From contig NZ_CP134696.1 in the NCBI RefSeq assembly GCF_031851795.1, forward strand, positions 62,001 to 126,000: a stretch of DNA of 64,000 nucleotides, given 5' to 3'. This DNA comes from Pontibacter sp. G13. Lineage in GTDB: Bacteria > Bacteroidota > Bacteroidia > J057. Within the stretch, counting starts at the first letter, position 1; the number at the start of each line of letters is the position of its first letter. Shown here one piece after another: positions 2,866 through 37,151 of the stretch. A model generated the notes under the pieces. That model was given only the letters and a program-made list of their open reading frames with translations, was not told the DNA's origin and searched no databases. A program made the translations under genes and the position numbers.

Positions 2866-2908
2866 AGGGCCGCAATATTATTTAGCTTCCGTGATAAATT
2901 AGAATGCG

Positions 2909-3207: not shown

Positions 3208-3224
3208 CGCAAATTTTTGCGACT

Positions 3225-6041: not shown

Positions 6042-6065
6042 GGAACGGACTGATTCCATGATATG

Positions 6066-6104
6066 CACCCGGCACTCTCGATTGTGTCGGGTGTGTTTGT
6101 TTTT
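6066..6104 (+). terminator. Rho-independent terminator of carB
   Basis: CACCCGGCAC and GTGTCGGGTG pair over ten bases (one G-U) around an eight-base loop, followed by TGTTTGTTTTT. Confidence 0.85.
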
Positions 6105-6136
6105 GAGGCGAATCGCAACTCTTTGTATAGGTTTTG

Positions 6137-6144
6137 TACATTTG
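6137..6144 (+). promoter_or_regulatory. -7 element upstream of the patatin-like gene
   Basis: TACATTTG is an exact TAnnTTTG match, 28 bases before the ATG at 6173. No clear -33 TTG is seen at the right distance. Confidence 0.45.
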
Positions 6145-6172
6145 AACCAAAAGCGCCTTACGAAATTCGACT

Positions 6173-8550: not shown

Positions 8551-8710
8551 TTGACATGAATCTCTGAGGGAAATGCCATTCATTCAAGTCAACCCCCTCC
8601 TATGGCTTACTGAGGTGGCAAACTGGTGTCAGATAGACATTGTTGCGAAATCGGAATACCGTCTTGGGAATGCCGCGGAAAATGAGCAGTTTTTGGAAAA
8701 TCGTATCGCT

Positions 8711-9466
8711 ATGTCATCGCAAGTCCACATTCTCAACGGAGATGCACTCAAGGAAATGCTCCAACACACCCACATCGAAGGTCCTGTCTGGGTAGCAAGG
8801 GAATGCCTGATCGAAGGCCCAGTCAAGGGAGATGGACCAGCAGCTATCTGGAATACCAGAGCCCACTATCTCGATGCTCATTACGGAAACGAAGGGGAGA
8901 CTTACCTTGAAAAGGTTGTGCCCGAATTTCAAGGTATGATGAACACACCCGAAGGATCAGATATTAACCTGTGGTTTGAGGAGGACCTATTCTGTCAGGC
9001 CAATCTCTGGTTCTGCATGTACTTGTTAGAAGGCAAATTCGATTCCTGTCAATTCTTCTGGGTGCGCCCCAACCCCACGAGCGGATGGTATGGATTTGGA
9101 GGAATGAAGCCTCAAGATCTACCTGCTCAATTAAGCGAACGTATCCCATTGCCCCCGCATACTTGCAAGAAACTGACTGAGGCTTGGACCTATTTCCAAC
9201 AACATGATCTTGCGGCGCTACAGTCAACTGCCGATCAACTGAATCCCCCATTTGGACAAGTTCAGGAAGTGGTCAAAGCACATGTCGATCGATTCCCTAC
9301 CGATGAAAAATGGGGAAAACCCGAACAATTATTGGTTCAACTCATCGAGGAAAATCCGCAAGGGTCTTTCGGAGAAATCTTCCGAGCATTCAACCAGCAA
9401 GCCGGAATCTATGGATTTGGGGATTCTCAAGTGAAAAAAATGTATGACCGGGTGAATCCGAACTAA
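8711..9466 (+). CDS. DUF1835 domain-containing protein
   Basis: The 251-residue protein begins MSSQVHILNGDALKEML and continues with a WVARECLIEGPVKGD block, the pattern of DUF1835 proteins. The frame is open for 46 further codons upstream, but the ATG at 8711 gives the family start. No signal peptide or membrane segment is seen. It is rich in Trp and acidic residues (for example NLWFEEDLFCQANLWFCMYL). Molecular function is unknown for the family. The last codons and stop lie inside the hairpin that ends the convergent sugar transporter gene. Confidence 0.75.
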   Translation: MSSQVHILNGDALKEMLQHTHIEGPVWVARECLIEGPVKGDGPAAIWNTRAHYLDAHYGNEGETYLEKVVPEFQGMMNTPEGSDINLWFEEDLFCQANLWFCMYLLEGKFDSCQFFWVRPNPTSGWYGFGGMKPQDLPAQLSERIPLPPHTCKKLTEAWTYFQQHDLAALQSTADQLNPPFGQVQEVVKAHVDRFPTDEKWGKPEQLLVQLIEENPQGSFGEIFRAFNQQAGIYGFGDSQVKKMYDRVNPN

Positions 9467-9478
9467 TCCACCCGGTCA
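9445..9478 (-). terminator. Terminator of the sugar transporter, overlapping the DUF1835 stop
   Basis: A perfect 10-base inverted repeat, TGACCGGGTG and CACCCGGTCA, with a 14-base loop. On the minus strand it is followed by TACATTTTTTTC. It therefore lies largely within the 3' end of the convergent DUF1835 gene and includes its stop codon. Confidence 0.75.
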
Positions 9479-9508
9479 TCGTGATACGGGCACTGCCCAG
9501 CATTTGGA

Positions 9509-10906
9509 TCAATGTGATACCCCAGCCGGTTGCTCTTCTTTTTGGCTCACCTCCACACCCGCAAACCTAAATCCAAAGAAGGCGATGTAGGCGTAGCAGG
9601 CCATGGGAAGAAAGAATGAACCCTTGACGCCGATCGCTGCAAATTCAGACAGCCAGCCTTGCAACACCGGAACGAGGGCTCCTCCCAAAATAGCCATCAC
9701 CAACAACGAGGAAGCCTGACTGGTATGTTTCCCCAGATTGTGGATAGACAGCGTGAAGATATTGGGCCACATGATGGAATTGAATAGTCCCACAGCCAGC
9801 AGCATCCACATAGAGGCAGCTCCGGTCAAGAAAATGGTTCCGAGGATCAAGCCCACATTCACCAAGGCAAACCCTCCGAGCGTCTTTCCGGGAATTCCCT
9901 TTCCCCAAATGAATCCCAAGATATTGAGCACTACGAATAGTAGGAATGGCGCAATTTCCGAGAGGCTCAGGCTGCCCAATTGCCAAATCAATCCGAAGGT
10001 AACCAGTGAACCAGCCACCATCCCCAACCACTTCTTTTGACTCGAAAGCTTCGAAAGGGAAAGGGCTCCGGAGAATCTCCCGACCATCGCTCCACCCCAG
10101 TAACAGGCGAGATAATTGGCTGCGATGTCCTCCCCTAGCCCCATTACATCGGACATTCCGATGAACTCGATCAGGAAGCTACCAATCGTCACTTCAGCCC
10201 CTACGTAGGTAAAGATCGCCAATACCCCCAAATACACTTGGGGAAACCGAATCGCACTTCCCCCTGAAAGGGAGGCATCATTCTGAAAATGAGGAAGATT
10301 GATCCGGGAGAATCCAATCGCCATCAACACGAAAATTCCGGAAAAAAGCAGATAGGGATATTTCACGCTCTCGCCGGCCTGACCTCCTTCATCTACCAAC
10401 ATACTGATCATCGCCACTCCCAAGAGCGGCGCCAAGGTAGTCCCAAGCGAATTGAAGCCCTGCGTGAGGTTCAGGCGAGAAGAAGCCGTTTCTGAAGTGC
10501 CGAGAATGGATACATACGGATTCGCAGCGATTTGGAGCAGGGTAAATCCCAGCCCCAGCACAAACAATCCTCCAAGAAACATCCAATAGGCGCCCAGCTG
10601 TGCAGCCGGGTAGAAAAGGCCACAGCCTACCGCAGAAATCAGCAAGCCCACGACAATTCCACGTTTGTAGCCGATCTTGTTGATGGGATCTCCCTGTACC
10701 AAGGATATCAGGAAGTAGATGACAGATCCGATAAAATAGGCGCCAAAAAAGGCAAACTGGACCATCATAGCCTGTGTCCGGGAAAGATCGAACATTCCCT
10801 TGAAATGGGGAATCAGCAGGTCGTTCATGCAGGTGATGAAGCCCCATAGGAAGAACAGGGAGGTCACCACTGCCAGCGAAAACCGGGAGTTGGAATGAGA
10901 ATTCAT
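9509..10906 (-). CDS. sugar MFS transporter, FucP/GluP type
   Basis: A 465-residue, roughly 12-segment carrier of the FHS branch of the major facilitator superfamily, which imports fucose, glucose or galactose by proton symport. The family start SLFFLWGFITCMNDLLIPH is present, as are AYFIGS, LQIAANPYVSILG and RLNLTQGFNSLGTTLAPLLG. A second ATG 15 bases upstream (10921) is possible. It follows the sulfatase gene on the same strand by 100 bases, with a hairpin between, so the two may be partly co-transcribed. Together with the esterase they look like a small sugar-scavenging set. The substrate sugar is not determined. Confidence 0.9.
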   Translation of the reverse strand: MNSHSNSRFSLAVVTSLFFLWGFITCMNDLLIPHFKGMFDLSRTQAMMVQFAFFGAYFIGSVIYFLISLVQGDPINKIGYKRGIVVGLLISAVGCGLFYPAAQLGAYWMFLGGLFVLGLGFTLLQIAANPYVSILGTSETASSRLNLTQGFNSLGTTLAPLLGVAMISMLVDEGGQAGESVKYPYLLFSGIFVLMAIGFSRINLPHFQNDASLSGGSAIRFPQVYLGVLAIFTYVGAEVTIGSFLIEFIGMSDVMGLGEDIAANYLACYWGGAMVGRFSGALSLSKLSSQKKWLGMVAGSLVTFGLIWQLGSLSLSEIAPFLLFVVLNILGFIWGKGIPGKTLGGFALVNVGLILGTIFLTGAASMWMLLAVGLFNSIMWPNIFTLSIHNLGKHTSQASSLLVMAILGGALVPVLQGWLSEFAAIGVKGSFFLPMACYAYIAFFGFRFAGVEVSQKEEQPAGVSH

Positions 10907-21224: not shown

Positions 21225-21514
21225 ATTGGCGGAATCTATATGCCCTTCCGACAGGACCGCTCCTGAGGTCGCGCCACTACGATCCCTCATGCCGCACACC
21301 CCCACCGCACCTCATAGATTGATCCCCTCATTAGGATGAAATACACCTTTTTCCATAATGATCCAGCACCCCAAAACGTAATCCATCGTGAGCCTTGCAA
21401 GTTCATTCCCACAAAAAGCCTGTTTTCACAAACATTTTTCCTGTTATTTCGAATCGGGTTCAAATCTCAATTTCGAATATAACCCTGACTGAATTGTCCA
21501 AACCGCTCTTCCTT

Positions 21515-24500
21515 ATGCACACGATCCGGATCTGCTCTACCTTGGTCGGGTTGGCCCTGCTCTTCACCGGTCCCTTGTTTGCCCAACCTGCCAATGACGA
21601 TCTCTGCCAAGCTTCTCTCATCTCCCTCAATGTGGGCTGTACCGGCCCCAATGGAGACAATACCAATGCCACCTCCCAGGTCTCTGAACCTTCAGCTTCC
21701 TGTTTCATCGGGGGAGCCAACTCGGTCTGGTACAAATTTGCAGCCCCAGTCACAGGCCTAGTGACCATTTCCACCGATCATCTGGTGGGAGACAATACAG
21801 ATACCGAAATTGCGCTGTACGCCCTTCCCAATGGGGATTGTACAAACTTGTTAGATCTGGTTGAACTTGCGTGCGATCAGGATGGCGGAACTTCAAGCGC
21901 CTTCAACTCGACCATATCAGGCGCGCCAGTGACTCCTGGGGACACCTTTTACGTCCAAGTATCCGGCTGGAGCGGCACCGAGGGGAGCTTTTGCCTGACA
22001 GTCGATTCCCTCATCACCCCCTCCAACGACAATCTTTGCAACGCGATCGAAGCAGTCGTAGATGGATCGTGCAATGGAACCCCCAATGGGGATAATAGCG
22101 GAGCAGGCATCCAGTCAGGAGAACCCACTCCCACTTGCTTCAATTCCCAACCACATTCCGTTTGGTACTTTTTCCAAGCACCGGCATCAGGATTGGTCAA
22201 CATCTCCACCGATTTCCCGATTGGCACACTCACCGATACCGAAATCGCACTCTATGAACAGACCAGTGGAGATTGCAGCACCTTGGGGACCCTCAACCAA
22301 TTGGCTTGTGACCAAGATGGCGGCACCACAGTGAGCTTTAATTCTTTGATCACCGGGGCAATCGTGGTGCCCGGTGATACTTACTATATCCAAGTTTCAG
22401 GATGGAACGGCGCTGAGGGCTCTTTCTGCCTACAGGTGGAGTCCGTTCAACCTCCACCAAATGATTCCCTTTGCCAAGCCATCGCACTGACGCTTGGGGC
22501 GGGATGTAGTGGCACCTCCAACGGAGACAATACCGGAGCCCAGTCCCACCCCAATGAACCTGTGCCGAGCTGCTTTTCTGGAGGAGCGAATTCGGTTTGG
22601 TACTCATTCCAAGGACCCGCCACGGGCTATGTTCAGATATCCACTGATTATGCCATCGGTAGTCTCACAGACTCTGAGATGGCACTGTATCTACTTCCAA
22701 ATGGTGATTGTACAGATCTCTCGGATTTGATAGAATTGGAATGCGATCAGGATGCCGGAGTCGTTTCGAGTTTCAATTCCGTCATTGTCACTTCTGTTAC
22801 CCCAAATGAGACCTACTATATTCAGGTCTCTGGATGGAATGGAGCCGAGGGAACTTTCTGCGTGACCGTAGACGGCATCAATCCTCCTCCAGCCAATGAC
22901 ACGCTGTGCAATGCGCTTCCCATCACAGTCGGTACCAGCTGCGCGGGAACTCCCAATGTCGACAATACCAACACCTCTCTTACCCTTACGGAGCCTCTGG
23001 GATGCGCTGCAGGCGCCACCAACTCCATCTGGTATACCTTCGTCGCCCCTCCATCTGGATATGTCAATATCAAGGCAGATACCGCTTCCGTCGGTGGCAC
23101 CAATGGCCAACTCGCCTTCCATGTCTACGACCTTCAGGGGGATTGTACGGATTTCAACAATCTGGTATCTGTCGGTTGCGAGGTGCTTGACCTTGCCTCT
23201 GATGCGGCATTGGACACACTCCCGGTAACGCCAGGCGAAACCTATTATCTACAAGTACTAAGCTTGGCATTTGGGACATTTTGCCTAGAAATCGAGGAAA
23301 CTATCCCGACATTCATCCCCTCCAATGACAATGTCTGCCAGGCCATCTCCCTCCCTGTAGATGGGAGCTATGGGGTTTATTCCAACTTGAATGCTACGCT
23401 TCAATCCGGAGAATCCGCCCTAAATCCACCTCCCGGCAATGGCCAGACCAATGATGGGTGGTTTGTAGGAGACACGATGATCCAAACTTCAGTATGGTTC
23501 AGCTTTGTGGCACCTCAGTCTGGGTCCATGAGCATCGATCTCTGCAATGGAGGCAGCGCCAATACGACATTTGACACACAGATTGCGCTTTATTCCACCA
23601 CTGACTGTCAGGATTTTGGCACATTCACCTGGCTATTCGGTAATGATGACAATCCCAACCTCTGTCCCTCTCCGACCAACAATTACGCCTCCTATATGGA
23701 GGTAGAATGCCTGACACCCGGTGAGACCTATTACATCTTGGTTGACGGGTTTGATGGAGAGACTGGATCCTTTGAGATTGGACTTGCTCCCATCATTACA
23801 GATCCACTTGTGCTATCTGGATTTGGCCTCCCTCCAACTTGTCTGGGTACAAGTTCAGGCTCGGTTTCTGTGGCAGTCAAAGGGGGAAGCCAGCCATATA
23901 GATATAGCTGGAATACCGGGGATACGGTTTCCCTCATAGAAAACGTCCCAGCCGGACCGTACACCGTGGTTGTGACAGATGCGTGTAATGCGGTGGATTC
24001 TGCTTCGATACTGCTCCCCAACCCACAAGGATTGGTGGCAGATGCAGGCCCTGATCAAATTGCCTGTGACGGCACCCCGGTTCAACTGGGAGGAAATCCT
24101 ACCGCTGTGGGAGGGTATCCTTTTCCACAGTCAAGAGGATATTTCATCGAGTCCAATTTCAATACCGGCGTGCAGACCTTCTCCAAGGCTCCTCTTCGCA
24201 GGCTGAGTCCTCTTCAAGGAATCTCGACCTTGGACACACTGGGTAATATCCTAGCAGGGGATTTTGTGGAAGGTGTATTTGTGGGAATCGATGATGACAA
24301 TCGCCAATTGGTCCTGATCGACACCTCGACCGGGCTCCCGACCTTGATACCGGGTATGGCGGCGTCTTCCAATGACACCTGGACCGGATTGGCCTATGAT
24401 CGGACTTCTTCGACCTTGTATGCCACCACGAGCAGCGGATCATCGTCCACGCTCTATACAGTGGATTTATTCACCGCCACCCCTACTCCAATTGGCGTGA

Positions 24501-25474
24501 TGAATATTTCAGTACCGATTTGGCTCGCCATCGATACCCTTGGGAACCTGTTTACCCTCAACTTGGAGGACGACCAGCTCTACAGCGTCAATTCCTCCAC
24601 AGGATTTGCAACCGCAATAGGTCCTGTAGGATTTGATGCGAATTTCCCCCAAGACGCAGATTTCGATGAACGGACCAATAGGCTATACACGACCGCCTTC
24701 AATGGAGATGCCTTCTCTACGGAGTACCGAGAAATCTCCACAGACACAGGGTTGAGCAATCTGATCAGTCAGGTTGCCGGGCCGATCAATTATCCTTCAT
24801 TTGCCATCTCTCCGGGAATAGCTCCAGTCTACACCTATGATTGGACCCCAAGCATTGGTCTGGATGATTCCTCGATTGCCAATCCCATGATGAATCAGGC
24901 GTTGGATACAGAATTTGTCCTTTCCGTAACAGATGCCTGTGGGACAACCCGCACCGATACAGTGTCGGTATCAGCCTCGGTCATCAGCTTGGTGTTGAGC
25001 GCAAATCCAGATGATGGGTCCGGAAATGGTGCAGCCACTGTCAATATCTCTGGCGGCAATCCTCCATACGACATCCTCTGGTCAAATGGATCTGCCACCT
25101 CTACGATATCGGGGCTTGATCAGGGCACCTATACGGTATCAGTGACCGATTCTACGGGATGCAACAAAACAGATAGCATTGAAGTGACCGGTCCGGTTTC
25201 CATCGATCCAACCGATTTGGGAATATCGGAATATCAACTTTTCCCAGTTCCGGCTACTACAGTCCTTCAGGTTCAGGTAACCTTGGTCACCCCGGGGAAA
25301 CTATCTTTGGTGTTGGTGGATATACAGGGACGTTCGGTCAGGTCCCAAGCGGGAGATCATGTGCAAATCAGCCACCAACATCAGCTATCCGTAGAGGGAT
25401 TGGCAAGTGGGTTCTACACCCTGTACATCCAGACAGAAAGCGGAATATTTAGGCAAAAAATCAGCATCAAATAG
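21515..25474 (+). CDS. large secreted T9SS type A cargo with expanded PPC-like repeats (paralogue 2)
   Basis: From the ATG at 21515 the protein has 1319 residues with a clean signal peptide (LLFTGPLFAQ); the frame is open 40 codons further upstream but that part does not look like a leader. Four closely related PPC-like repeats of about 120-130 residues follow, each with NDxLCxA, SVWYxFxxPxxG, TEIALY and PGDTYYxQVSGW. A fifth, more divergent one resembles the single PPC-like domain of the neighbours. Then come a SprB-type repeat, the propeller-like region, a second SprB-type repeat and a C-terminal sorting domain (YQLFPVPATTVLQVQV). The sorting domain has FPVPA where most have YPNP. Codon bias is weaker than in the flanking paralogues. 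Confidence 0.85.
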   Translation: MHTIRICSTLVGLALLFTGPLFAQPANDDLCQASLISLNVGCTGPNGDNTNATSQVSEPSASCFIGGANSVWYKFAAPVTGLVTISTDHLVGDNTDTEIALYALPNGDCTNLLDLVELACDQDGGTSSAFNSTISGAPVTPGDTFYVQVSGWSGTEGSFCLTVDSLITPSNDNLCNAIEAVVDGSCNGTPNGDNSGAGIQSGEPTPTCFNSQPHSVWYFFQAPASGLVNISTDFPIGTLTDTEIALYEQTSGDCSTLGTLNQLACDQDGGTTVSFNSLITGAIVVPGDTYYIQVSGWNGAEGSFCLQVESVQPPPNDSLCQAIALTLGAGCSGTSNGDNTGAQSHPNEPVPSCFSGGANSVWYSFQGPATGYVQISTDYAIGSLTDSEMALYLLPNGDCTDLSDLIELECDQDAGVVSSFNSVIVTSVTPNETYYIQVSGWNGAEGTFCVTVDGINPPPANDTLCNALPITVGTSCAGTPNVDNTNTSLTLTEPLGCAAGATNSIWYTFVAPPSGYVNIKADTASVGGTNGQLAFHVYDLQGDCTDFNNLVSVGCEVLDLASDAALDTLPVTPGETYYLQVLSLAFGTFCLEIEETIPTFIPSNDNVCQAISLPVDGSYGVYSNLNATLQSGESALNPPPGNGQTNDGWFVGDTMIQTSVWFSFVAPQSGSMSIDLCNGGSANTTFDTQIALYSTTDCQDFGTFTWLFGNDDNPNLCPSPTNNYASYMEVECLTPGETYYILVDGFDGETGSFEIGLAPIITDPLVLSGFGLPPTCLGTSSGSVSVAVKGGSQPYRYSWNTGDTVSLIENVPAGPYTVVVTDACNAVDSASILLPNPQGLVADAGPDQIACDGTPVQLGGNPTAVGGYPFPQSRGYFIESNFNTGVQTFSKAPLRRLSPLQGISTLDTLGNILAGDFVEGVFVGIDDDNRQLVLIDTSTGLPTLIPGMAASSNDTWTGLAYDRTSSTLYATTSSGSSSTLYTVDLFTATPTPIGVMNISVPIWLAIDTLGNLFTLNLEDDQLYSVNSSTGFATAIGPVGFDANFPQDADFDERTNRLYTTAFNGDAFSTEYREISTDTGLSNLISQVAGPINYPSFAISPGIAPVYTYDWTPSIGLDDSSIANPMMNQALDTEFVLSVTDACGTTRTDTVSVSASVISLVLSANPDDGSGNGAATVNISGGNPPYDILWSNGSATSTISGLDQGTYTVSVTDSTGCNKTDSIEVTGPVSIDPTDLGISEYQLFPVPATTVLQVQVTLVTPGKLSLVLVDIQGRSVRSQAGDHVQISHQHQLSVEGLASGFYTLYIQTESGIFRQKISIK

Positions 25475-26213: not shown

Positions 26214-28457
26214 ATGAATCATCTTTACACTTTGGCAAAATCCTTCTGCCTAACCGCAGCAGTTGCCATTTCTCAAGTTCTGGTGGCACAACCCACCAAT
26301 GACACCCCATGTAATGCGACCCTCGTCACGGTCAATGGTGCTACCGTCACTGCAAGCAATGTGGGTGCAACTGCTGATCCTGGGGAGTCCAACCTCGCCC
26401 CACCACAAGGATTCGGACAAGACTATTCCACTTGGTACTTCCAAGAAACGGATATCCAAAACAGTATTTGGTTCAAGTTTGCAGTTCCTGCTTCTGGTGC
26501 AGTAGAGATCGACTTGTGCGATGCCGGAACTACCTTCGATACTCAAATTGCGCTTTTCCTCGCTGCGAATTGTGGTGACTACAACACCTACCTTCGTATC
26601 GGCGCAAATGATGACAATCCTAGCTGTGCCAACGGCGGATTGCTTTCCTACGGAATTTGGGGATGCCTCAACCCTGGCGATACCGCTTTGTTGTTGGTTG
26701 ATGGCTATAATGCAGACACGGGTTCTGTTGCAGTTTCCATTTCAGAGTTCGTCCCTACTGCTGTTTCAGCGACCGTAACGACCAAGGATGCAGACTGCTC
26801 CGGTACCGGCGGTGGTGCTACCGTTTCCAATATCCAAGGTGGTGTACCAGGTGGTTACTCTATCTTCTGGAACAACACCACTACGGAAGAGTCCAATGGA
26901 CCTTTGGCTCCTGGAAACTACACCGTTACCGTATTTGACATTTGCTCAAACTCCACCTCCTACAACGTGACCATTGGTACCGAGACTAGCTCTCCATTGG
27001 CAGTAGATGCTGGACTTCCTGCAGTGTCCGCTTGCTCCAATGCTCAGTTGGTATTGGGAGGCACTCCAACCGCTTCTGGTGGTACGCCTATCGTAGAAAA
27101 CCGTGCATTTGGAATTGACCTCAATGGTGATGGCAATGGTACGAACCTGCTTTACACGTCGCGGTTGAACAACCAATACGTTTCAAAAGACATGGTCTTT
27201 TTGCCTAACCACGATTCTCCATATTCCGGTGACTTTGTAGGTTCACAGTTCATGTTCATCAACTCTGATGGAGCTTCCAGCCAATTGATTGCTGTAGATA
27301 CCTTGACCAAGATTCCTACTGCATTGGCAACCATCGATCCAGGTGCAGACCGCTACTGGGGAGGTATGTCCTTTGATCCTGTGAGCCAGAGCGTTTACGC
27401 ATTGAGCGTGGGTCAAAACGACATCACCCTTCATGTAATTGATCCAGGTACTGGTTTTGCCACTCAGCTTTCAACGCTGACCGGAAATGTAACCACTCCC
27501 TCTTGGTTGGCCATCAACAACACTGGCCAGATGTTCACCTTGGATGATACCGAAGATGCCATCTACTTGATCGATCCAGGATCCGGCGCAACTGCCCTGA
27601 TCGGATCTGTTGGATTTGATGCTGAATTCGTCCAAGATGCTGACTTTGACCCAGAGACTAATCTCCTTTACCTCGCTGCGTTCAACAATGATGCGGGTCA
27701 GGCTGAGTTGCGTGTTGCTGACTTGAGTACTGGCGCGACTACTTTGGTTGATCCTGCCTACAACGTATTCCAGATTGGTGCATTTGGTATCGCTCCAGCT
27801 TCAGCTCCAGCATATACCTTTGCGTGGTCTCCAAGCACTGGTTTGGATGACGCGGCAATTGCCAATCCTACCATGATCACCCCAACTGCCGGTACATACT
27901 CTGTACTTGCCACTGACCTTTGTGGAGCTTTCGCTTCAGATCAGGTTACCGTTACGCTGGCTGACGCTCCTATGGTAGCCGTAAGCGGTGTATGGAACAG
28001 TGCAACCAATACTGGTAGTGCTGCTGCTGCAGTAACTGGCGGTACCCCTCCATTTACCTACAACTGGAACACAGGTGCAACCACACAGGCGGTATCCAAC
28101 CTCCCTGCTGGTTTCTACACAGTTTCTGTTCGTGATGCAAATGGTTGTGAGACTGTAGGTGAGATCATCATCAACGAGTCTACCTCGATCAACGCAAAAT
28201 TGGCGGGAATTACTCACTTCAGCGCATATCCGAATCCAGCACAAGATCAGTTCACGCTGGAACTTGAATTGGATCGCATGCAGCAAGTACAAGTATCCTT
28301 GATGGACCTCAAAGGCCGTCAGGTATTTGGACGTGTATTCAGCAATGTCCAGAACTTGAATGAAATCATCGAGTTGGGTCATGTTTCTGCAGGTCTATAC
28401 CTCCTGAACATCACCACTGAGTCTGGACGTTCTGTCAGCAAAATCACCATCCAGTAA
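26214..28457 (+). CDS. secreted T9SS type A cargo with PPC-like, SprB-type and propeller domains (paralogue 3)
   Basis: The 747-residue protein matches paralogue 1 in domain order: signal peptide (SQVLVAQ), PPC-like domain (SIWFKFAVPASG, FDTQIALFLAANCGDY) and SprB-type repeat. The propeller-like region (SWLAINNTGQMFTLDD, QDADFDPETNLLYLAAF), a second SprB-type repeat and the sorting domain (FSAYPNPAQDQFTLELE) follow. As in paralogue 1, codon use is strongly biased. It is preceded by the small secreted protein and followed by a strong terminator. Such proteins are outer-surface or extracellular; no ligand or enzyme activity can be read. Confidence 0.85.
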   Translation: MNHLYTLAKSFCLTAAVAISQVLVAQPTNDTPCNATLVTVNGATVTASNVGATADPGESNLAPPQGFGQDYSTWYFQETDIQNSIWFKFAVPASGAVEIDLCDAGTTFDTQIALFLAANCGDYNTYLRIGANDDNPSCANGGLLSYGIWGCLNPGDTALLLVDGYNADTGSVAVSISEFVPTAVSATVTTKDADCSGTGGGATVSNIQGGVPGGYSIFWNNTTTEESNGPLAPGNYTVTVFDICSNSTSYNVTIGTETSSPLAVDAGLPAVSACSNAQLVLGGTPTASGGTPIVENRAFGIDLNGDGNGTNLLYTSRLNNQYVSKDMVFLPNHDSPYSGDFVGSQFMFINSDGASSQLIAVDTLTKIPTALATIDPGADRYWGGMSFDPVSQSVYALSVGQNDITLHVIDPGTGFATQLSTLTGNVTTPSWLAINNTGQMFTLDDTEDAIYLIDPGSGATALIGSVGFDAEFVQDADFDPETNLLYLAAFNNDAGQAELRVADLSTGATTLVDPAYNVFQIGAFGIAPASAPAYTFAWSPSTGLDDAAIANPTMITPTAGTYSVLATDLCGAFASDQVTVTLADAPMVAVSGVWNSATNTGSAAAAVTGGTPPFTYNWNTGATTQAVSNLPAGFYTVSVRDANGCETVGEIIINESTSINAKLAGITHFSAYPNPAQDQFTLELELDRMQQVQVSLMDLKGRQVFGRVFSNVQNLNEIIELGHVSAGLYLLNITTESGRSVSKITIQ

Positions 28458-28756: not shown

Positions 28757-29281
28757 TTAAATACTTCTTTCAGATTGGGCTTGATCGAGCCATTCCTGAA
28801 AATCGTCTTCCAGCAACAGATCGTCAAAGGTTTCGGCATCGAAGTCCGATAAATTTTGCTTTTCAAGCAGTTGCAATTCCTGCATAAGCAAGCCAACGTC
28901 TGGAATCGAGGTAGGTTCAAGCTTCACTCTCCATTGGCCGGATTGCTCAATCAGCAGCAACTCTCCCTCTCCATATCCCTCTACTTCATAAATCACAGTA
29001 TCCACTGCGGTATGAGAAGACTTGGCGATTCGTTTGAGCCGATACCCTACGTTGGGTTCCTTCGCAGCCGATTCGGCTTCTTCAAGTGCCAAGATTTCGA
29101 GTTCATCAAATGTTTCGTGGCTCTCTCTCGATACGTATTTCTTGGCAAGCTGAAAGTTTTGGGCCAATCTCGCATCTAGATACTTGTGGGCAGTTTCTCG
29201 GATGGAAGAATGGCTATCATCTTGGCAACCAACAATGACAGAAATCAGACAAGACAGAGCAAAAAGGGAACCAGCGCGCAT
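28757..29281 (-). CDS. lipoprotein with DUF4878-like fold
   Basis: A 174-residue lipoprotein: signal with lipobox VIVGCQ. A domain with the pattern of small NTF2-like/DUF4878 proteins follows (AHKYLDARLAQNFQLAKKYVS, later GEGELLLIEQSGQWRVKL), then an acidic C-terminal tail (DFDAETFDDLLLEDDFQEWL). Function is unknown; DUF4878 likeness is a judgement by eye. It follows the WecA-like gene on the same strand by 84 bases, and a 19-base palindrome lies in that gap. Confidence 0.65.
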   Translation of the reverse strand: MRAGSLFALSCLISVIVGCQDDSHSSIRETAHKYLDARLAQNFQLAKKYVSRESHETFDELEILALEEAESAAKEPNVGYRLKRIAKSSHTAVDTVIYEVEGYGEGELLLIEQSGQWRVKLEPTSIPDVGLLMQELQLLEKQNLSDFDAETFDDLLLEDDFQEWLDQAQSERSI

Positions 29282-29365: not shown

Positions 29366-30502
29366 TTAGCTGGCTTTGCCTTTCACCTTCTTCATGTGGA
29401 TCATTTTCACATGTGGAGCAGCAGCGGGTTCTGCAAGTGCCTCTAGGTATTTTCTGCGTCGATAACTCCTGTACCCGTGGAGGCCAATGACGGAAGCCAA
29501 TGCGAAAAAGAAAATGATGACCAGGATAGTCTGATTGGAAATTCCCATGAAAAATCCTGCCAATACCAGACCGACCAAACCCAACGTATAGGTGTAAAGC
29601 GCCAAGGTCGCATACATGACAGAGAGTCCGCAAGCAAGCAACAAGTGATGGATATGATTCCTATCCGCACTAAATGGAGAACGACCTCTAATCATCCTAC
29701 CAATCATCACCTGTAGGGTATCCATAACTGGGACAGCCAGCAAGGCAAACAAGATCACGGGGCCGAAATTGTGCATCCCCGTCATCATCCCAAGGCCATG
29801 GCTGATTTTCAGGAATTCAACAGATAAAACCGCCAGTAAAAACCCCACGGGTAAGGAACCCGTGTCTCCCATGAATATCTTGGCCGGATTGAAATTGTGT
29901 CCGAGGAATCCCATCAATCCGCCTGCGAGTCCAAAGGACAGAAGGGCAAAAGACATGCTCCCAACCAATAGAAATGCGATCCCTAGTGCGATTGAGGCAA
30001 TGATCCCAATGCCTGCGGCTAACCCATCGATCCCGTCAATGAGGTTGTAGGCATTCGTCAAACCCGTGATGAAGACAATGGTCAATCCTAGTTGGACAAT
30101 CACCGGAAGATCAGTGATTCCCAGAAGTCCAAACAAGGACTCAATCCTCACCCCAGACCAAACTACCACACAGATCATAATGAACTGGAAAAAACCCTTT
30201 CTACGGGCTGACATGGCGATCAGGTCATCGCCCAATCCAATCATCATAAAGGTGATGGCTGAAAACACCACAATCAGGAATCGAGGATCTATCTCGACTT
30301 GAGTCATGAGCATCGTGGATGCCAAGGTTCCCAGCATGATCGCGAGCCCTCCCATGGGCGGGATCGGATTGACATGAGCTTTTCTTCCACCAGGTTCATC
30401 CATGAGAGATTTCAAGTGGGCAATTTTGACAATAGTTGGAATCAGAAAGAAGCTGACGAGGGAGCCTATGAAAAAGGCAGAGACTAGCAGAAGGTAATCC
30501 AT
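29366..30502 (-). CDS. MraY/WecA family undecaprenyl-phosphate sugar-1-phosphate transferase
   Basis: The 378-residue, about ten-segment membrane enzyme moves a sugar-1-phosphate (often GlcNAc) from UDP-sugar to undecaprenyl phosphate, the first step of many cell-surface glycans. The motifs are complete: GLGDD, the NAYNLIDGIDGLA block with two aspartates, NFNPAKIFMGDTGS, and a DRNHIHHLLL histidine motif typical of WecA/TagO and not of MraY. A basic tail of about 30 residues ends the protein. Another surface-glycan gene, the DUF1972 glycosyltransferase, lies about 5.5 kb upstream on the same strand. The product glycan is not known. Confidence 0.9.
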   Translation of the reverse strand: MDYLLLVSAFFIGSLVSFFLIPTIVKIAHLKSLMDEPGGRKAHVNPIPPMGGLAIMLGTLASTMLMTQVEIDPRFLIVVFSAITFMMIGLGDDLIAMSARRKGFFQFIMICVVVWSGVRIESLFGLLGITDLPVIVQLGLTIVFITGLTNAYNLIDGIDGLAAGIGIIASIALGIAFLLVGSMSFALLSFGLAGGLMGFLGHNFNPAKIFMGDTGSLPVGFLLAVLSVEFLKISHGLGMMTGMHNFGPVILFALLAVPVMDTLQVMIGRMIRGRSPFSADRNHIHHLLLACGLSVMYATLALYTYTLGLVGLVLAGFFMGISNQTILVIIFFFALASVIGLHGYRSYRRRKYLEALAEPAAAPHVKMIHMKKVKGKAS

Positions 30503-30869: not shown

Positions 30870-33122
30870 TCAAGGAGCATTCAGGATCAGTTCTGATCTA
30901 CGATTTCGTGCTCGACCATTTGAAGATCCATTATTGGCCTTGGGTAAATTTTCCCCGTAGGAAATCGTGGCCATTCTACTTTTCGACACTCCCTTCGCTG
31001 TCAGATACTGAATGATGGCCACAGCTCGGTTTTGCCCCAGAACCATATTGTACATAGGGGTCCCTTCATTGTCTGTATGCCCAGCAATCTGAATGGAATG
31101 CTCGGGGTTGCTCACCAAGTACTCTGCGAGCTCGTCCAGCATTTGGAAGTATTTCGGTTTGATAATCGCCTGATCCGTATCAAACTCCACCACGCCAAAA
31201 ACGGGCTCTCCATCCATTTTTGAACGAATCCCCATATTGGCCTGCGTAGGACACCCGCCATTGGATTCTGGTCCGTACCTGAGTGGGCAATTATCCACTA
31301 GGTCCGAGATTCCATCCTTATCGCTATCTGGGCACCCAAACAACGCCTTGATTCCTGGGACATAGGGGCATTCATCTATATGATTCAGGACCCCATCCCC
31401 ATCCGCATCCATGTTCCTTTGTTGGCCAATCGGACAGCCTCGATGCTCTTTGGGACCGGGGGTATTGGGACATTGATCCTCAAAGTCAGATACCCCATCC
31501 ATATCCGCATCCGGACAACCTGCCAAGGACACCACCCCAGCCACAGTCGGGCATTCATCCAATCGATCCATGACCCCATCCTTGTCCGAATCTACAGCAC
31601 CTTCGGGACATCCCTGAGAAAGCCTCGTACCTGCAATAGTCGGACAAAGATCTTCGTAATCAGAGATCCCGTCTCCATCTTGATCTGGACAGCCTTGGAG
31701 TTCAGGTACTCCAGGATGTTGAGGACAAAGGTCAATCTTATCGGGAATACCATCTCCATCTGCATCGATATCCGAGTGCGGGCAACCAGCCCGATAGCGT
31801 GGTCCCGGTTGAGTTGGGCATTTGTCCAAATGATCAGGCAAGTCATCCCCATCAAAATCTGGACATCCCCTAAATGCAATGAGACCGGGATCAGAGGGAC
31901 AGAGATCCGCATTATCCAAAATACCATCTCCATCTCGATCATTCGGCGGACAGCCTTGCATCGAAGCCAAGCCAGGTATGGAAGGACAAAGATCTTCCTC
32001 ATCCCGAATTCCATCGCCATCACTATCAGGACACCCCTGAAAAGGCTTGATCCCAGGAATATCCGGACAGGCATCCTTGCTATCTACAATCCCATCTTGG
32101 TCCCGATCGTTGGGCCTCAATTTGGCGGATGGATAGCTTTGGGTGCTTGGTTTTACCGTTCTTCTTGTGGGAATTCGATATCTAAGGCCTACTTCAGGTC
32201 CACCTTGTCCAGAGTTGAAGGAAGAAAGGCTTGAAGTGGTTATGTCATAGCCAAACCTCACATCCAGTTGTCCATATTCGATCCCCAGAAATAATCCCAC
32301 CGCATCGTCCCATCGATACATCGCCCCCCCTCGGAGCGTCAACATGCTATCGACTTCATACCCTAGTATGGCAGAGAGATTTACTTCATTCGCAGTACCT
32401 TGCTCCAAATACCATAGCTCCGGGGAAATCGTGGTGCGCTCTCCCAATCCGAGATCCATGGAGCCCGAAAGCGCCATCCTCATAGGCAGCTCCCCATCTC
32501 CGCCGAGAAACGAAAACGAAGGCTGAGTCAAATGTCCAAAGGAAGCCCCAACCATAAATCCCCGAAGAACAGCATCTGTCTGTGCCTGATAGCGCCAATT
32601 AAACCCCGCATGAAGATCCCCGCGGGTGATGCTGGTAGATTCGAAAATCTCCCCGTTTGGAAGATTGGGATCGAATCCAAAATCCGGGTTGTATTGGTTG
32701 TCAAAACTCAACCGAGCCGGGTCAAATCGTTTCTGGACAAATCCTCCCTGAAAACCCAAGCTCAATCGGTGGGAAGGCCTAATGGGCGCATGGAAGGCGA
32801 ACCCAACGGATAGCTGGGTATGCTTCATACCCCCTCCCCCAATTCCGGAATCGTAAACGGACAGGCCGAGCCCTAGCTGTTCCAATCGCCCATCCACCGA
32901 AAACATGGAGGTGATAAATGGGTCGTTCAATGATCCCCATTGCCTCCGGTGGTATCCCTGTAGATTAATTTCATTGGGATTGGCTCCTACAAGACCGGGA
33001 TGGTAATACATCCCTTCCGGTCGGACAAATGGGCTCCCATGCGGGTCCTGTCCCTTTACAGATCCACCCCCGAAAACCATCACGCTACAGAATGCAAAAA
33101 GAGTAATCAATCTTTTGGTCAT
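30870..33122 (-). CDS. PorP/SprF-like outer-membrane protein fused to TSP3 repeats and an OmpA peptidoglycan-binding domain
   Basis: The 750-residue protein has a signal peptide (SVKGQ) and then a beta-barrel-like part (about 26-325) of the PorP/SprF type (MYYHPGLVGANPNEINLQGY, LSVGFAFHAPI, RLSFDNQYNP). Next are ten calcium-binding thrombospondin type 3-like repeats (about 336-622), each ending in a CPxxxG...GCP pattern with DxDGDGIxD loops. A C-terminal OmpA domain (about 635-750) includes VVEFDTDQAIIKP and IAGHTDNEG. PorP/SprF proteins assist type IX export of type B cargos, and OmpA domains bind peptidoglycan. The gene starts inside the last four bases of the type B cargo gene before it, so the two are translationally coupled. 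Confidence 0.85.
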   Translation of the reverse strand: MTKRLITLFAFCSVMVFGGGSVKGQDPHGSPFVRPEGMYYHPGLVGANPNEINLQGYHRRQWGSLNDPFITSMFSVDGRLEQLGLGLSVYDSGIGGGGMKHTQLSVGFAFHAPIRPSHRLSLGFQGGFVQKRFDPARLSFDNQYNPDFGFDPNLPNGEIFESTSITRGDLHAGFNWRYQAQTDAVLRGFMVGASFGHLTQPSFSFLGGDGELPMRMALSGSMDLGLGERTTISPELWYLEQGTANEVNLSAILGYEVDSMLTLRGGAMYRWDDAVGLFLGIEYGQLDVRFGYDITTSSLSSFNSGQGGPEVGLRYRIPTRRTVKPSTQSYPSAKLRPNDRDQDGIVDSKDACPDIPGIKPFQGCPDSDGDGIRDEEDLCPSIPGLASMQGCPPNDRDGDGILDNADLCPSDPGLIAFRGCPDFDGDDLPDHLDKCPTQPGPRYRAGCPHSDIDADGDGIPDKIDLCPQHPGVPELQGCPDQDGDGISDYEDLCPTIAGTRLSQGCPEGAVDSDKDGVMDRLDECPTVAGVVSLAGCPDADMDGVSDFEDQCPNTPGPKEHRGCPIGQQRNMDADGDGVLNHIDECPYVPGIKALFGCPDSDKDGISDLVDNCPLRYGPESNGGCPTQANMGIRSKMDGEPVFGVVEFDTDQAIIKPKYFQMLDELAEYLVSNPEHSIQIAGHTDNEGTPMYNMVLGQNRAVAIIQYLTAKGVSKSRMATISYGENLPKANNGSSNGRARNRRSELILNAP

Positions 33123-36070
33123 CGCAAGAGGGTTGTAATGCCAGTCAAAGTATGTCTAGAACCGTCAAAAAGGGTGATCGTGGCCACATAGAGGTAACTA
33201 TCTGTCGCCACCGCACTTCCTTCAAAAGTGCCATCCCAGCCGATCGCTGGATTTTCGCTCCTGAAAATCATCTGGCCCCATTCGTTGTAAACCCTGAAAT
33301 CAAGGCGATCGATGTTGTTTCCCCTGACCCTAAGCACATCGTTTTCTCCGTCATTGTTGGGGGAAAAGGCTGAGGGGATGAAGAGGTTTGCTTGCTCTGC
33401 CTGATGCTGGACCGCATCCACTTGCATCAATGTGTCCTGACAGCGAGCACTCGCTTGGGCAATGAGGATAACCGTATAAGCGCCATAAGCTTCGTAGGTG
33501 TGAGAAACGAAGGTTCCTGAACCTGTATTCAATAGGCCGGAGGCTGGATCACCAAAATCCCACAGATAGTTCCATGACAAGGCTCCTACAGCAGAAAAAT
33601 CCACTTGGAGACTGCCATTGGCAAGCATGGTCTCATCTGTAGAGAAGGTGGCTTCCGGGTTGGGAATGGCAACAACCTGAAAGATGCGCCCGAATAGGGT
33701 ATCTCCAGTCGAGGTTTCCCCTCTCACCTCAAACTCAAAGGTGCCAACTGTAGGAAAATTGATAACGAAGAAGCTATCTGGAGACCTTTGGAGCAGGAAA
33801 CCATCTTGGAAGAAGGAATAGGAATCAAAACCAGCGGAGTCCGCTACGAGCGTCAATTCGTCCCCTACACAAATGGAATCGCCAGAATTCAAGATAGTCC
33901 CAGCCTGATTCTCGACATGCCAATCCAAATTCCCCAACCTCAGGGTTTCATAAGTGGTGTCTGCGCATCCATGTTCTGAGAAAGCGATCAACCTGGCCTG
34001 AAAGGAGGCATTGGATTCGTAGATATACTCAGGGTTGAATTCGGAGGAAGTGTCCTGAGCAGCCAGATTAGAATCACCAAAATCCCAAAAATAGGTACTC
34101 GCGTTTTCGGATTCATTGATGAATTGGACCTCATGCATACCGCTTGGCAACTCTGTCTGCTGGTGGGAAAATGCTGCAATAGGCTGAGGTACTACACATA
34201 GTTCAAATGGAGTAGTAGTCGCATCTCCATCATTTCCAGATCCGATTACTGATATGTTGTAACAACCGACGGAATCCCATTGAGTAGTCCAAGTGGAGTC
34301 AGATCCGCGCTGTATGGTATCCCCATTTACAATCCAACGGTATTGCGAAAAAAGCCCTGCCCCTTCTGCCGCAAGGAATGACACTTCGGTAGCGGTGCAG
34401 ATGGTATCTCCTGTCATTTGCAGTTCTGGCTCAGTCGTGATCCGCAAAGGGGACACGGATATGGTTTGTGTTTTGCTCTGTAAGCATCCTAGATGTGAGG
34501 TTGTGGTCAAGGTCACCGAGAAGGATCCAAATGTTTCATAGACATGCAGAGGGTTGGGGGTGAAAGAGGAATTGGCGGCTCCGGAAAGTGGGTCCCCGAA
34601 ATCCCATTCATAGGCACTGGCGAATGGATAATTGGGGGAAAAGAACACTTGGACACCTGTTGGAACGGTTTGTTGGGTGTGGGTAAAGCCTGCATCCACT
34701 CCAGGGTTGACGATAAAACGAAAAGGATTTGATTCGGAGGACAAGACCGCTCCCTTATACGCCTTGACTACTACTGCTTGAATCCCCGACTCTTCAAATA
34801 TCCAGCTAAACTGTCGGGAACTTGAGGTCGCCTTCGATTCTCCATTGACCACAAATTCATATTGATCAAATGTATCAGGAGACGCAAAAAACCGAACATG
34901 TTCACCTAGGCATATCGAATCGCCTTCGGAAATGGAATCGGCCTCCAGAATTACTGCGGGAACGAAAGTCACCTTCCTGATCAAATTGTTAAAGGCATCC
35001 CCTACGTAAATTGCCTCATCGGGGACTGAGTAGCATAATGCCGTCGCCCCGCTAAATGATGCATCCACGCCGTATCCATCCGTTCCCCCTTGGGTACCGG
35101 GCTCCCCGATAAAAGTGGTTACCACCCCATTCTGGATTTGGCGCATGGTATGATTATATCCATCCATGACATAGATCCCTCCATCAGGAAGCGCCACGAG
35201 ATCCCACGGAAAATTAAAGTCTGCTACTAGAGAATCACCATCTTGACTCCCGATGAATCCTGAACCCGCAACCGTGGTAGTCGTCCCGTCAGGTTGCACC
35301 CTGCGAATCTTGTGGTTCCATTCGTCTGCTACCAAAATGGAACCGTCGTGATCCAACTCGATGCCATAAGGTCGATAGAACCGCGCTTGACTTCCTGTTC
35401 CATCATCATCTCCCTCCAGAAATGCCGTTCCCGCTATCGTGGAAACATTGCCGCTGGTGGAAATTCTTCGGATTGTATGAGCCAAATGATCACACACATA
35501 CACCGTACCATCGGGGGTAACGGTAATTCCCGTAGGGTCAGCAAAACGAGCCACACTGGAAGGCCCGTTGGCCACCCCAAAGGATCCAGTCCCTGCAACC
35601 GTAGAAACGATCCCCAGAGTATCGATTTTCCGGATCAAATAGTTTTTGGTATCCGCCACATAGACATTTCCTACAGAATCACAGGCGATCCCCCACGGGG
35701 AATAAAATCTTGCAACTGAACCTGGGCCATCCTCTCTTCCAATGGTCCCATTTCCAGCAAGCGTATAGACAGTATCCCGGCGCGTATCCAGCACCCTGAT
35801 TTTGTGGTTCCATCTATCGGCAATGTAGACTCGGCCAAATTTATCGCAAGCAATCCCATGAGGATTACTGAACATAGCTCCATTGAGCGGATCTCCATCA
35901 ATATCTCCTGCCAATTCGAGTCTTCCCGCAACCGTAATAACTTGTTGAGCAATTGACTGAATTGGAATCAAAACGGACAGACAGAATGTGATTACAAGAA
36001 CTGAGCGGTTACTCCACCTGAGATTGGAGTTTGCCTTTTCCTTCCAAAGCGTATTCAATGGATTGTGCAT
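33119..36070 (-). CDS. T9SS type B cargo with NHL propeller and PKD-like repeats
   Basis: The 983-residue secreted protein has a leader with a hydrophobic stretch ending PIQSIAQ. An NHL-repeat beta-propeller (about 45-370, with YIADRWNHKIRVLD, VYVADTKNYLIRKID, ILVADEWNHKIRRV) follows. Several PKD-like modules (YEWDFGDP, YFWDFGDS, YLWDFGDP) come next. The C-terminal gliding-motility type sorting domain begins FIPSAFSPNNDGENDVLRV, includes YNEWGQMIF and ends in TLLR. The ATG at 36070 was chosen; another ATG at 36112 is in frame. Both lie within the end of the glycosyltransferase gene. Probably a large adhesin or scaffold on the cell surface. Confidence 0.85.
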   Translation of the reverse strand: MHNPLNTLWKEKANSNLRWSNRSVLVITFCLSVLIPIQSIAQQVITVAGRLELAGDIDGDPLNGAMFSNPHGIACDKFGRVYIADRWNHKIRVLDTRRDTVYTLAGNGTIGREDGPGSVARFYSPWGIACDSVGNVYVADTKNYLIRKIDTLGIVSTVAGTGSFGVANGPSSVARFADPTGITVTPDGTVYVCDHLAHTIRRISTSGNVSTIAGTAFLEGDDDGTGSQARFYRPYGIELDHDGSILVADEWNHKIRRVQPDGTTTTVAGSGFIGSQDGDSLVADFNFPWDLVALPDGGIYVMDGYNHTMRQIQNGVVTTFIGEPGTQGGTDGYGVDASFSGATALCYSVPDEAIYVGDAFNNLIRKVTFVPAVILEADSISEGDSICLGEHVRFFASPDTFDQYEFVVNGESKATSSSRQFSWIFEESGIQAVVVKAYKGAVLSSESNPFRFIVNPGVDAGFTHTQQTVPTGVQVFFSPNYPFASAYEWDFGDPLSGAANSSFTPNPLHVYETFGSFSVTLTTTSHLGCLQSKTQTISVSPLRITTEPELQMTGDTICTATEVSFLAAEGAGLFSQYRWIVNGDTIQRGSDSTWTTQWDSVGCYNISVIGSGNDGDATTTPFELCVVPQPIAAFSHQQTELPSGMHEVQFINESENASTYFWDFGDSNLAAQDTSSEFNPEYIYESNASFQARLIAFSEHGCADTTYETLRLGNLDWHVENQAGTILNSGDSICVGDELTLVADSAGFDSYSFFQDGFLLQRSPDSFFVINFPTVGTFEFEVRGETSTGDTLFGRIFQVVAIPNPEATFSTDETMLANGSLQVDFSAVGALSWNYLWDFGDPASGLLNTGSGTFVSHTYEAYGAYTVILIAQASARCQDTLMQVDAVQHQAEQANLFIPSAFSPNNDGENDVLRVRGNNIDRLDFRVYNEWGQMIFRSENPAIGWDGTFEGSAVATDSYLYVATITLFDGSRHTLTGITTLLR

Positions 36071-37151
36071 ACTGGTTGCTGACTTGATTCCATGTGTAAC
36101 GGCGATCTGCAATTTCCTTCATATCCATGGAGATCTCGGTTAAAGTGACCTGTTCCACGGTGTTCATGAGCTGGATCAATTCCCCTGAAGTAGCGAAATA
36201 CCGAGCCTTACCCTCCGTTGTCGCAAAGTTGAAATTCACATCATAGGCGAAAACAGGACGAGAAAGATTCATGGCTTCGACAAGTGCAGGATTTGTGCCT
36301 CCTGCAGAATGCCCATGGATATACACCCGACAATTTCCCCGAAGGAGATCGAGTGTCCGCATGTCTGAAATGTAGTCGATGATATGGATGTTGTCGTACC
36401 CAGAGTACTGCGCCTTGAGGGAGCGACCATAAGCACTACTATCCCAGTTTCCGACCAGTGCAAAAGGCTGATCAGGCATATTGGCAAATGCCTCCAGAAT
36501 CATCCCGATATTGTTCTCGGGTTCAATCCTCCCTACCATCATCGAATAGGATTCTGCCAAGAATGGGTAAGCCACAATATCTTCTGGAGTAATTTCCACA
36601 CGATTGACATGATCTCCGCCATACGCGATGAGATCAAGGCCTTGAGAACGGCCATAGTGATCTACGACATAGTGCTGGATCCATTCATTGTCCGCAACGA
36701 TTCGATCCGCGAAACGAACCGCAATGCGTTCGGCGAACTTGAGATATTTCTTGGCAAATGTTCCCCACTTGGGACGGCGCCACTCCAACCCATCAATATT
36801 GATCACCCAAACCTTGTTGGGAAACAGCATTTTGAAAAGTGGAAGCGCCAAACACCCAGAAACCCCCAAGACCACCATCACATCTGACTGCCTCACAGAT
36901 TTCATCATCGCGACGATGTCATATGGGATACTTTGGATGCCATTGGCCTCCAAGGGAAGATACTCCATTTGGGCACCTTCCCAGTTCTCCATTCGCTCCT
37001 CAGGCTTGTATACCTTCTGAGAATTGAAGACCGTAATCTGATATCGATCAGCCAGATTGAGTACAAAATGATGGGCAAGCGTTTCGAATCCTCCATATCG
37101 GGCGGGAACCCCGACTACCCCTATTACCGATACCCGAGCAGTATGATGCAT
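36009..37151 (-). CDS. DUF1972-type glycosyltransferase
   Basis: A 380-residue GT-B glycosyltransferase. The N-terminal DUF1972 part shows GVVGVPARYGGFETLAHHF. The acceptor/donor part has NIDGLEWRRPKWG, and a C-terminal GT1/GT4-like part has YSMMVGRIEPENN, GHSAGGTNPALVEAM and the DVNFN loop. Relatives include rhamnosyltransferases of surface polysaccharide pathways; the sugar here is unknown. It is cytoplasmic with no signal peptide. It is the first gene of an overlapping three-gene unit; its last about 60 bases lie within the next gene. Confidence 0.85.
   Translation of the reverse strand: MHHTARVSVIGVVGVPARYGGFETLAHHFVLNLADRYQITVFNSQKVYKPEERMENWEGAQMEYLPLEANGIQSIPYDIVAMMKSVRQSDVMVVLGVSGCLALPLFKMLFPNKVWVINIDGLEWRRPKWGTFAKKYLKFAERIAVRFADRIVADNEWIQHYVVDHYGRSQGLDLIAYGGDHVNRVEITPEDIVAYPFLAESYSMMVGRIEPENNIGMILEAFANMPDQPFALVGNWDSSAYGRSLKAQYSGYDNIHIIDYISDMRTLDLLRGNCRVYIHGHSAGGTNPALVEAMNLSRPVFAYDVNFNFATTEGKARYFATSGELIQLMNTVEQVTLTEISMDMKEIADRRYTWNQVSNQYAQSIEYALEGKGKLQSQVE

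Follow-up and report, generated by a model that had tools for sequence, protein, structure and literature searches.

Type B cargos of the T9SS are described as being held by their carriers (PMC12635249, PMC9143113), and two fates have been proposed for them: propulsion by the gliding track, or fixation to the wall by PorP-PorE pairs (PMC9143113, PMC12618676). In Flavobacterium johnsoniae, the type B cargo SprB is paired with the PorP-family carrier SprF, whose C-terminal tail contains a CxC motif that forms a disulfide with the moving GldK; movement of SprB needs this disulfide, whereas export does not, and SprB is exported but hardly moves in the absence of the tail cysteines (PMC12635249). 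Static wall anchoring has been proposed for PG1035 of Porphyromonas gingivalis, which forms a complex with PorP and PorE and is part of a proposal that sets static against mobile proteins (PMC9143113). PorE holds peptidoglycan through Asp576, Asn584 and Arg591 (PMC7192894). Similarly, Fjoh_3952 of F. johnsoniae, encoded beside a PorE-like gene, has been reported to be static (PMC12618676).

We analysed a locus within a 64,000-nucleotide stretch (the window) of the 7.67 Mb genome of Pontibacter sp. G13, in which a PorP/SprF barrel, TSP3 repeats and an OmpA domain are joined in one protein encoded directly after a type B cargo. As with SprB-SprF, the cargo gene is followed by a PorP-family carrier gene; however, the carrier lacks a C-terminal cysteine and has the TSP3-OmpA part instead of the SprF tail. 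The PG1035-PorP-PorE set likewise comprises a type B cargo, a PorP barrel and an OmpA-type domain with the D/N/R residues, but the last two are separate proteins there and a single chain here. N-terminal of its OmpA domain, PorE carries TPR, propeller and CRD parts, where the fusion has the PorP barrel and TSP3 repeats, and the fusion scores 65.4 bits against the PorE model NF052230 (cut-off 600). Fjoh_3952-Fjoh_3951-Fjoh_3950 has the same order of cargo, SprF-like carrier and PorE-like gene, although its OmpA-type part is also a separate protein.

Two more distant systems resemble the locus in part. TraA-TraB of Myxococcus xanthus is likewise an overlapping two-gene operon for a surface receptor and an OmpA-domain partner (PMC3325183), and the window fusion scores 235 bits against the TraB model NF033763 (cut-off 700), the best stretch being the last TSP3 repeats and the OmpA domain. 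However, the N-terminal part of TraB is described as having no significant homology (PMC3325183), whereas that of the fusion is PorP, and TraA bears a MYXO-CTERM tag, in contrast to the T9SS sorting domain of the window cargo. PorZ of P. gingivalis is, like the cargo, a T9SS surface protein with beta-propellers, and it binds polysaccharide (PMC8545088); unlike the cargo, it acts in the PorU attachment complex. A search of open-licence papers, by title and the start of the abstract among the matches listed, returned no report of a PorP-OmpA fusion or of such an operon, and we found no such fusion in the excerpts of PMC7192894, PMC5053529 and PMC9143113. The gene pair occurs in some Bacteroidota, usually amid surface-polymer genes, and probably encodes a surface protein and a wall-anchored carrier that holds it still.

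A PorP/SprF-TSP3-OmpA protein encoded with a type B cargo

On the minus strand of the window, a DUF1972-type glycosyltransferase gene is followed by the cargo gene, the fusion gene and a WecA-like transferase gene (Table 1). The glycosyltransferase and cargo genes overlap by 62 bases, the fusion gene starts within the last four bases of the cargo gene, as the earlier note had described, and a gap of 367 bases separates the fusion from the WecA-like gene. The glycosyltransferase scores 176 bits against the rhamnosyltransferase model NF046071, under the cut-off of 500. Beyond the WecA-like gene, a 174-aa frame (28757-29281) had no match in a search of NCBIfam.

Table 1 Features of the Pontibacter sp. 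G13 operon, in positions of the window
Feature	Position	Strand	Basis or remark
DUF1972/GT4-type glycosyltransferase	36009..37151	-	operon's first gene; PF09314 and PF00534
Type B T9SS cargo (983 aa, start codon ATG at 36070)	33119..36070	-	NHL, PKD, CHU_C and TIGR04131 above cut-off
Cargo NHL beta-propeller (predicted), residues 41-377	34940..35950	-	AlphaFold2 model and Foldseek
Cargo type B sorting domain, residues about 898-981	33128..33379	-	TIGR04131 (912-995 when numbered from TTG 36112)
Cargo Glu930 in N-E-W-G	33281..33283	-	N-R-W-G is the usual form in type B domains
Stop/start overlap (ATGA) between the cargo and fusion genes	33119..33122	-	sequence
PorP/SprF-TSP3-OmpA fusion, 750 aa	30870..33122	-	profile matches, AlphaFold2 model, Foldseek
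Fusion PorP/SprF 14-strand barrel (predicted), residues 23-318	32169..33056	-	PF11751, TIGR03519, model, Foldseek
Array of ten TSP3-like repeats, residues 339-626, with 10 Cys pairs (20 Cys)	31245..32108	-	PF02412, repeat starts, Cys positions, 5wtl match
OmpA peptidoglycan-binding domain (predicted), residues 647-741, with D684, N692 and R699	30900..31184	-	PF00691
WecA/TagO-like polyprenyl-phosphate sugar-phosphate transferase	29366..30502	-	PF00953, 126.6 bits

The cargo open reading frame is listed from a TTG; the in-frame ATG used in Table 1 precedes, as judged by eye, a signal-peptide-like stretch, and hence the cargo end given in the earlier note is right. That note had read the protein as a type B cargo with an NHL propeller and PKD repeats, in agreement with the profile matches, which include CHU_C at 52.2 bits (cut-off 27) and TIGR04131 at 47.2 bits (cut-off 35). 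The AlphaFold2 model of the cargo has a mean pLDDT of 74.5 and contains a confident beta-propeller at residues 41-370 (block pLDDT 79-96), which Foldseek placed close to the NHL propellers of a teneurin-like protein, SOQ1, NHLRC2 and Bacteroides BT_3476.

The description of the second protein as a PorP-like barrel fused to ten TSP3-like repeats and an OmpA domain was likewise borne out, with profile scores well above curated cut-offs. Residues 23-305 match PF11751 (PorP_SprF) with an E-value of 1.2e-39 and 136.9 bits (cut-off 22.3), and the protein scores 165.2 bits against TIGR03519 (cut-off 90.55), 116 bits against PF02412 (TSP_3) and 74.9 bits against PF00691 (OmpA). The AlphaFold2 model (mean pLDDT 70.8) builds the front domain from 14 strands, with block pLDDT values of 80-97, and includes the OmpA domain; the TSP3 section is of low confidence. 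PDB matches found by Foldseek for the barrel include FadL (2r88) and two chains of T9SS translocon entries, 8gl6_F and 6h3i_F, which we take to be PorV. For the remainder of the fusion, matches were to Capnocytophaga OmpA (5wtl), Pal and the C-terminal domain of PorE (6top). As modelled, the front domain is a FadL-type outer-membrane barrel of the PorP/SprF family, and the pairing of the genes makes the fusion the predicted carrier for the type B cargo. The earlier note had named a front domain of another kind as a refuting finding, and this is not what the profiles and model give.

The pair in other genomes

We searched an order set of 22 genomes and, more widely, 395 genomes of the class and three families (24, 199 and 35 genomes). 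Within the order, the pair is present in five genomes of five genera, all in the family of the window, and the four-base overlap is retained in all five (ATGA, once GTGA), indicating that it is not due to chance. The matches listed from all searches include at least 51 fusions, which come from 50 genomes. One fusion is truncated at a contig end and was kept out of the counts, and two (L197 and L201) have a degenerate OmpA domain; identical proteins were taken once, and L192 was excluded because it lies on the same contig as L112. L197 and L201 were treated as unfused in the neighbour, tree, NHL-propeller and repeat/linker counts, and as fused in the motif, five-gene-marker and OmpA contact-residue counts. 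Among the best 80 of 509 relatives kept from a scan of named genomes, only four are fused. A plasmid search yielded nothing useful, returning three records with distant PorP matches (24-26% identity).

The search for further fusion-cargo pairs that the earlier note had called for found that, where the gene directly upstream of a fusion could be seen (45 cases), it encodes a type B sorting domain on the same strand in 44 (exception, L205). A type B cargo also directly precedes 66/120 unfused PorP genes, and 39/43 of those from the same families, indicating that an adjoining cargo is normal for these carriers. The kind of cargo differs: an NHL propeller is found in the upstream cargo of 38/44 fusions, compared with 3/66 unfused PorP. 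Two of these three are the degenerate fusions, and the third, L207, is the tandem neighbour of a fusion. At that locus (genome G433, 2185-10897), a first module consists of a glycosyltransferase, an NHL cargo and an unfused PorP of 324 aa with no C-terminal cysteine, and a second, in tandem, of a glycosyltransferase, an NHL cargo and a PorP-TSP3-OmpA fusion; the two modules may reflect either acquisition of the fusion or its loss. The six fusions with no NHL cargo are L199 and L200, where the cargo is cut by a contig end, L098, whose cargo has a different architecture with PKD repeats, and L208, L219 and L268. The last three form a separate PorP-TSP3-OmpA group with short cargos of ~400 aa; polysaccharide markers are absent from the stretch of three genes around them. 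Pfam identified SprB repeats in the cargos of L208 and L268, the two scanned.

Fusion-partner cargos also differ in their sorting domains. The type B motif is N-R-W-G in 57/64 cargos of unfused PorP, with Q or E at the R position in 4/64, whereas Q or E occupies this position in 40/46 cargos of fusions, and the three with R are those of the divergent group. Within the window genome, 24/30 sorting domains have R; the window cargo has E and three others have Q or E. Five type B sorting-domain motifs have been described as needed, yet insufficient, for the choice of carrier (PMC12618676). We ruled out that the variant denotes static cargos in general. Nine unfused carriers are directly followed by an OmpA gene and have a cargo in view; seven of these cargos have N-R-W-G and two, at L115 and L157, have N-Q-W-G, and the carriers of these two keep the C-terminal cysteine. 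N-Q/E-W-G instead marks the partners of the fused group.

The fusion could, in principle, be a general OmpA-like tether between outer membrane and wall, unrelated to the neighbouring cargo, and its TSP3-OmpA part is indeed closest to Capnocytophaga OmpA (5wtl). However, the regular presence of a preceding type B cargo, the frequent NHL propeller and the sorting-domain variant all speak against this possibility, which we consider highly improbable.

The part of the fusion that varies is the middle. The number of TSP3 repeats ranges from 10 to 0 (G009 has none), some fusions have a Pro/Ala/Glu-rich linker, and the distance from barrel to OmpA domain ranges from 36 to 373 residues, with a median of 149. 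On these data, we ruled out that the design centres on the TSP3 stalk. The barrel and the OmpA domain are, by sequence comparison, the constant part.

Carrier tails and wall-binding residues

A cysteine is present within the last 30 residues of 102/121 unfused PorP proteins (here, those of <430 aa) but of 0/48 fusions, including that of the window. The contig-cut fusion (G001/L036) is outside the 48, and L197 and L201, being neither fused nor <430 aa, are outside both counts. In the window fusion, every one of the 20 cysteines beyond the signal peptide sits in a TSP3 pair. In 16/48 fusions, at least one cysteine lies outside such pairs, but none of these is among the 30 C-terminal residues. 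Of the 102 Cys-tailed unfused proteins, 91 have a C-P/Y-x-F/L-like ending. Many unfused PorP proteins, for example those at the Chitinophaga loci L118, L129 and L142, end in C-P-K/R-F, with a lone cysteine four residues from the end instead of the CxC of SprF. Such an ending may serve PorP proteins generally as the link to the track or the ring.

In place of such a tail, the fusions have a predicted peptidoglycan-binding domain. D684, N692 and R699 of the window fusion have the same spacing (+8/+15) as the contact residues of PorE, and are invariant across nine aligned fusions. All three contact residues are kept in 37/50 fusions; the other 13 have lost at least one of them, in ten cases the Asp, indicating that wall binding is not universal. 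All 13 belong to family f29, in which the loci with decayed contact residues and a retained fusion are L100, L101, L112, L193-L201 and L228.

The earlier note had suggested a variant of the gliding machinery, that is, an SprF variant that moves on the track with its OmpA domain loosely on peptidoglycan. The barrel does belong to the SprF family, the host genome encodes GldK, GldL and GldM above cut-off (as well as a GldJ/GldK-like lipoprotein under the cut-offs), and the 13 decayed sites could be read in this way. However, the absence of a tail cysteine from every fusion counted, and the presence of the putative wall-binding residues in the window fusion and in 37/50 overall, led us to reject gliding as the main reading; we regard it as very unlikely. 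The combination of a Cys-less tail with OmpA residues matching those of PorE makes a static anchor more likely than gliding. Hence, from the earlier picture of a self-contained surface protein with a wall-tied partner, we retain the conserved pairing and the carrier with a wall anchor, but neither gliding nor an essential ten-repeat stalk.

We therefore favour, as the likely explanation, a fusion that does in one chain what PorP and PorE do together, exporting its own cargo and stapling it to the wall. The barrel would receive its own type B cargo at the T9SS translocon and retain it at the cell surface in the way that SprF retains SprB. The tail would not be tied to the moving GldK track, but would pass through TSP3 repeats or another linker to an OmpA domain gripping peptidoglycan, so that carrier and cargo would be fixed in place. 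The sequences themselves supply the architecture, the pairing and overlap, the missing C-terminal cysteine, the peptidoglycan-contact residues and the polysaccharide neighbours; from these we infer cargo export by the barrel, peptidoglycan binding and immobility. The result for the sorting motif and the 13 decayed OmpA sites slightly lower the odds we give to this explanation and to the wider scheme, set out below, in which a polysaccharide is also held. That several families maintain a natural PorP-OmpA fusion beside its cargo supports, on genetic grounds, a wall-fixed class of type B proteins, and the fusion provides a one-gene construct with which to test that class. The fate of a type B protein may be predictable from the sequence of its carrier: if that wider scheme is true, the carrier tail, with a cysteine for the moving track or an OmpA domain for the wall, would tell mobile from static.

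Separate OmpA genes give a related lead. The C-terminal cysteine is missing from 8/11 unfused PorP proteins whose gene has an OmpA gene directly downstream, compared with 10/103 others (Fisher 1e-5). Among same-family controls, 6/7 with a downstream OmpA gene are Cys-less, compared with 3/35 others (Fisher 1e-4). Independent pairs in the tree (three pairs) showed no trend, and since they do not confirm the link between cysteine loss and a separate OmpA gene, we treat it as no more than a lead. Both a C-terminal cysteine and a downstream OmpA gene are present at L115, L157 and L239.

The Pontibacter sp. G13 genome encodes four PorP proteins, the fusion included, and the further PorP genes are found elsewhere in it. 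At L107 and L108 (C1:3461000-3480000 and C1:4208000-4227000), each PorP gene lies beside a gene for an FGE-fold lipoprotein. In one of the two, a GldJ/GldK-like lipoprotein (under cut-offs) accompanies a Cys-tailed PorP; in the other, GldK (above cut-off), GldL and GldM accompany a PorP with no C-terminal cysteine. At L106 (3616-11605), a PorP gene whose product has two cysteines in its tail is followed, rather than preceded, by a gene for a protein of 2281 aa. This protein shows PKD-like motifs when inspected by eye, and its type B match, at 23.8 bits, is under the cut-off.

Polysaccharide genes around the pair

The earlier note was silent on the polysaccharide genes that flank the pair, a glycosyltransferase gene on one side and a WecA-like gene on the other. 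Considering only loci with at least five of six neighbours, 31/38 fusions have a marker (a WecA-like, DUF1972-type or Wzc gene) no more than three genes away, compared with 0/34 unfused PorP genes of families f29 and f69, from which alone the same-family controls were taken, and 2/90 unfused PorP genes overall. These two are the degenerate fusion L197 and the tandem neighbour L207. Note that the type B sorting-domain model was built from the 15 of 30 loci that fitted a pattern, and that fusion loci supplied the seeds of the marker models; this could favour fusions, though the controls are 0/34. A WecA-like gene lies directly downstream of 21/46 fusions and of 0/117 unfused PorP genes, and a homologue of the DUF1972 glycosyltransferase lies two genes upstream of 21/41 fusions. 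When the three divergent fusions are left out and the two degenerate ones added, 35/37 have a marker within five genes, again compared with 0/34 controls; L190 and L218 have no polysaccharide marker within that distance. Pfam identified polysaccharide export proteins (PF02563) at both L098 and L213, and L098 also has a polysaccharide flippase. In 13 genomes, there are 3 to 5 PF00953 genes per genome, MraY included, making a chance neighbour unlikely.

These associations suggest a use for static type B proteins. A surface polymer made by the WecA-like enzyme and the glycosyltransferases of the operon might be bound or organised by the wall-fixed NHL cargo and so be kept on the cell, which extends the wall-staple explanation and does not oppose it. 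In addition to the marker counts and the export and flippase genes, this proposal has a precedent in PorZ, also a T9SS beta-propeller protein that binds polysaccharide (PMC8545088). Glycan binding by the predicted NHL propeller is nevertheless a guess, two fusions are markerless within five genes and independent events are few; we put the proposal forward tentatively, as somewhat doubtful. More doubtful again is the scheme as a whole, in which a T9SS-exported NHL protein would hold the operon's polysaccharide, a wall-binding carrier would staple both, and the type of tail would predict mobile or static behaviour.

Alternatively, the polysaccharide genes might glycosylate the cargo, or make a glycan that is joined to T9SS proteins, with the cargo binding nothing. 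The WecA-like gene and the DUF1972 transferase gene share the operon of the cargo, and in P. gingivalis, A-LPS is the glycan to which type A cargos become attached (PMC9143113). However, type B cargos are described as carrier-held (PMC12635249, PMC9143113), and with several PF00953 genes in each genome, the copy at the locus need not be the general one. We consider this alternative unlikely.

Kinship between the fusions affects how these counts should be read. In a tree of the barrels (near copies removed, leaving 143 of 173 rows; several branches are long and the detail is unsure), the fused state is clustered, with six changes of which at least four are forced by supported branches, or five changes with three forced when the degenerate L201 is scored as fused. 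Three changes in the tree may represent one gain and two losses. Since the fused state is clustered and independent cases are few, the Fisher values of 6e-14 for polysaccharide genes and 5e-19 for the sorting motif, both of which ignore kinship, overstate the evidence. Tests on independent pairs had 3 to 5 pairs each, too few for significance: for fusion and polysaccharide genes (n = 4), about 1.8 pairs agree, 0.1 disagree and 2.1 show no difference; for OmpA anchor and Cys-less tail (n = 5), about 0.3 agree, 0.1 disagree and 4.6 show no difference.

Adjoining the operon on the opposite strand, the window encodes two type A T9SS sorting-domain proteins with SprB repeats (21395-25474 and 26214-28457), those of the second scoring under the cut-off.
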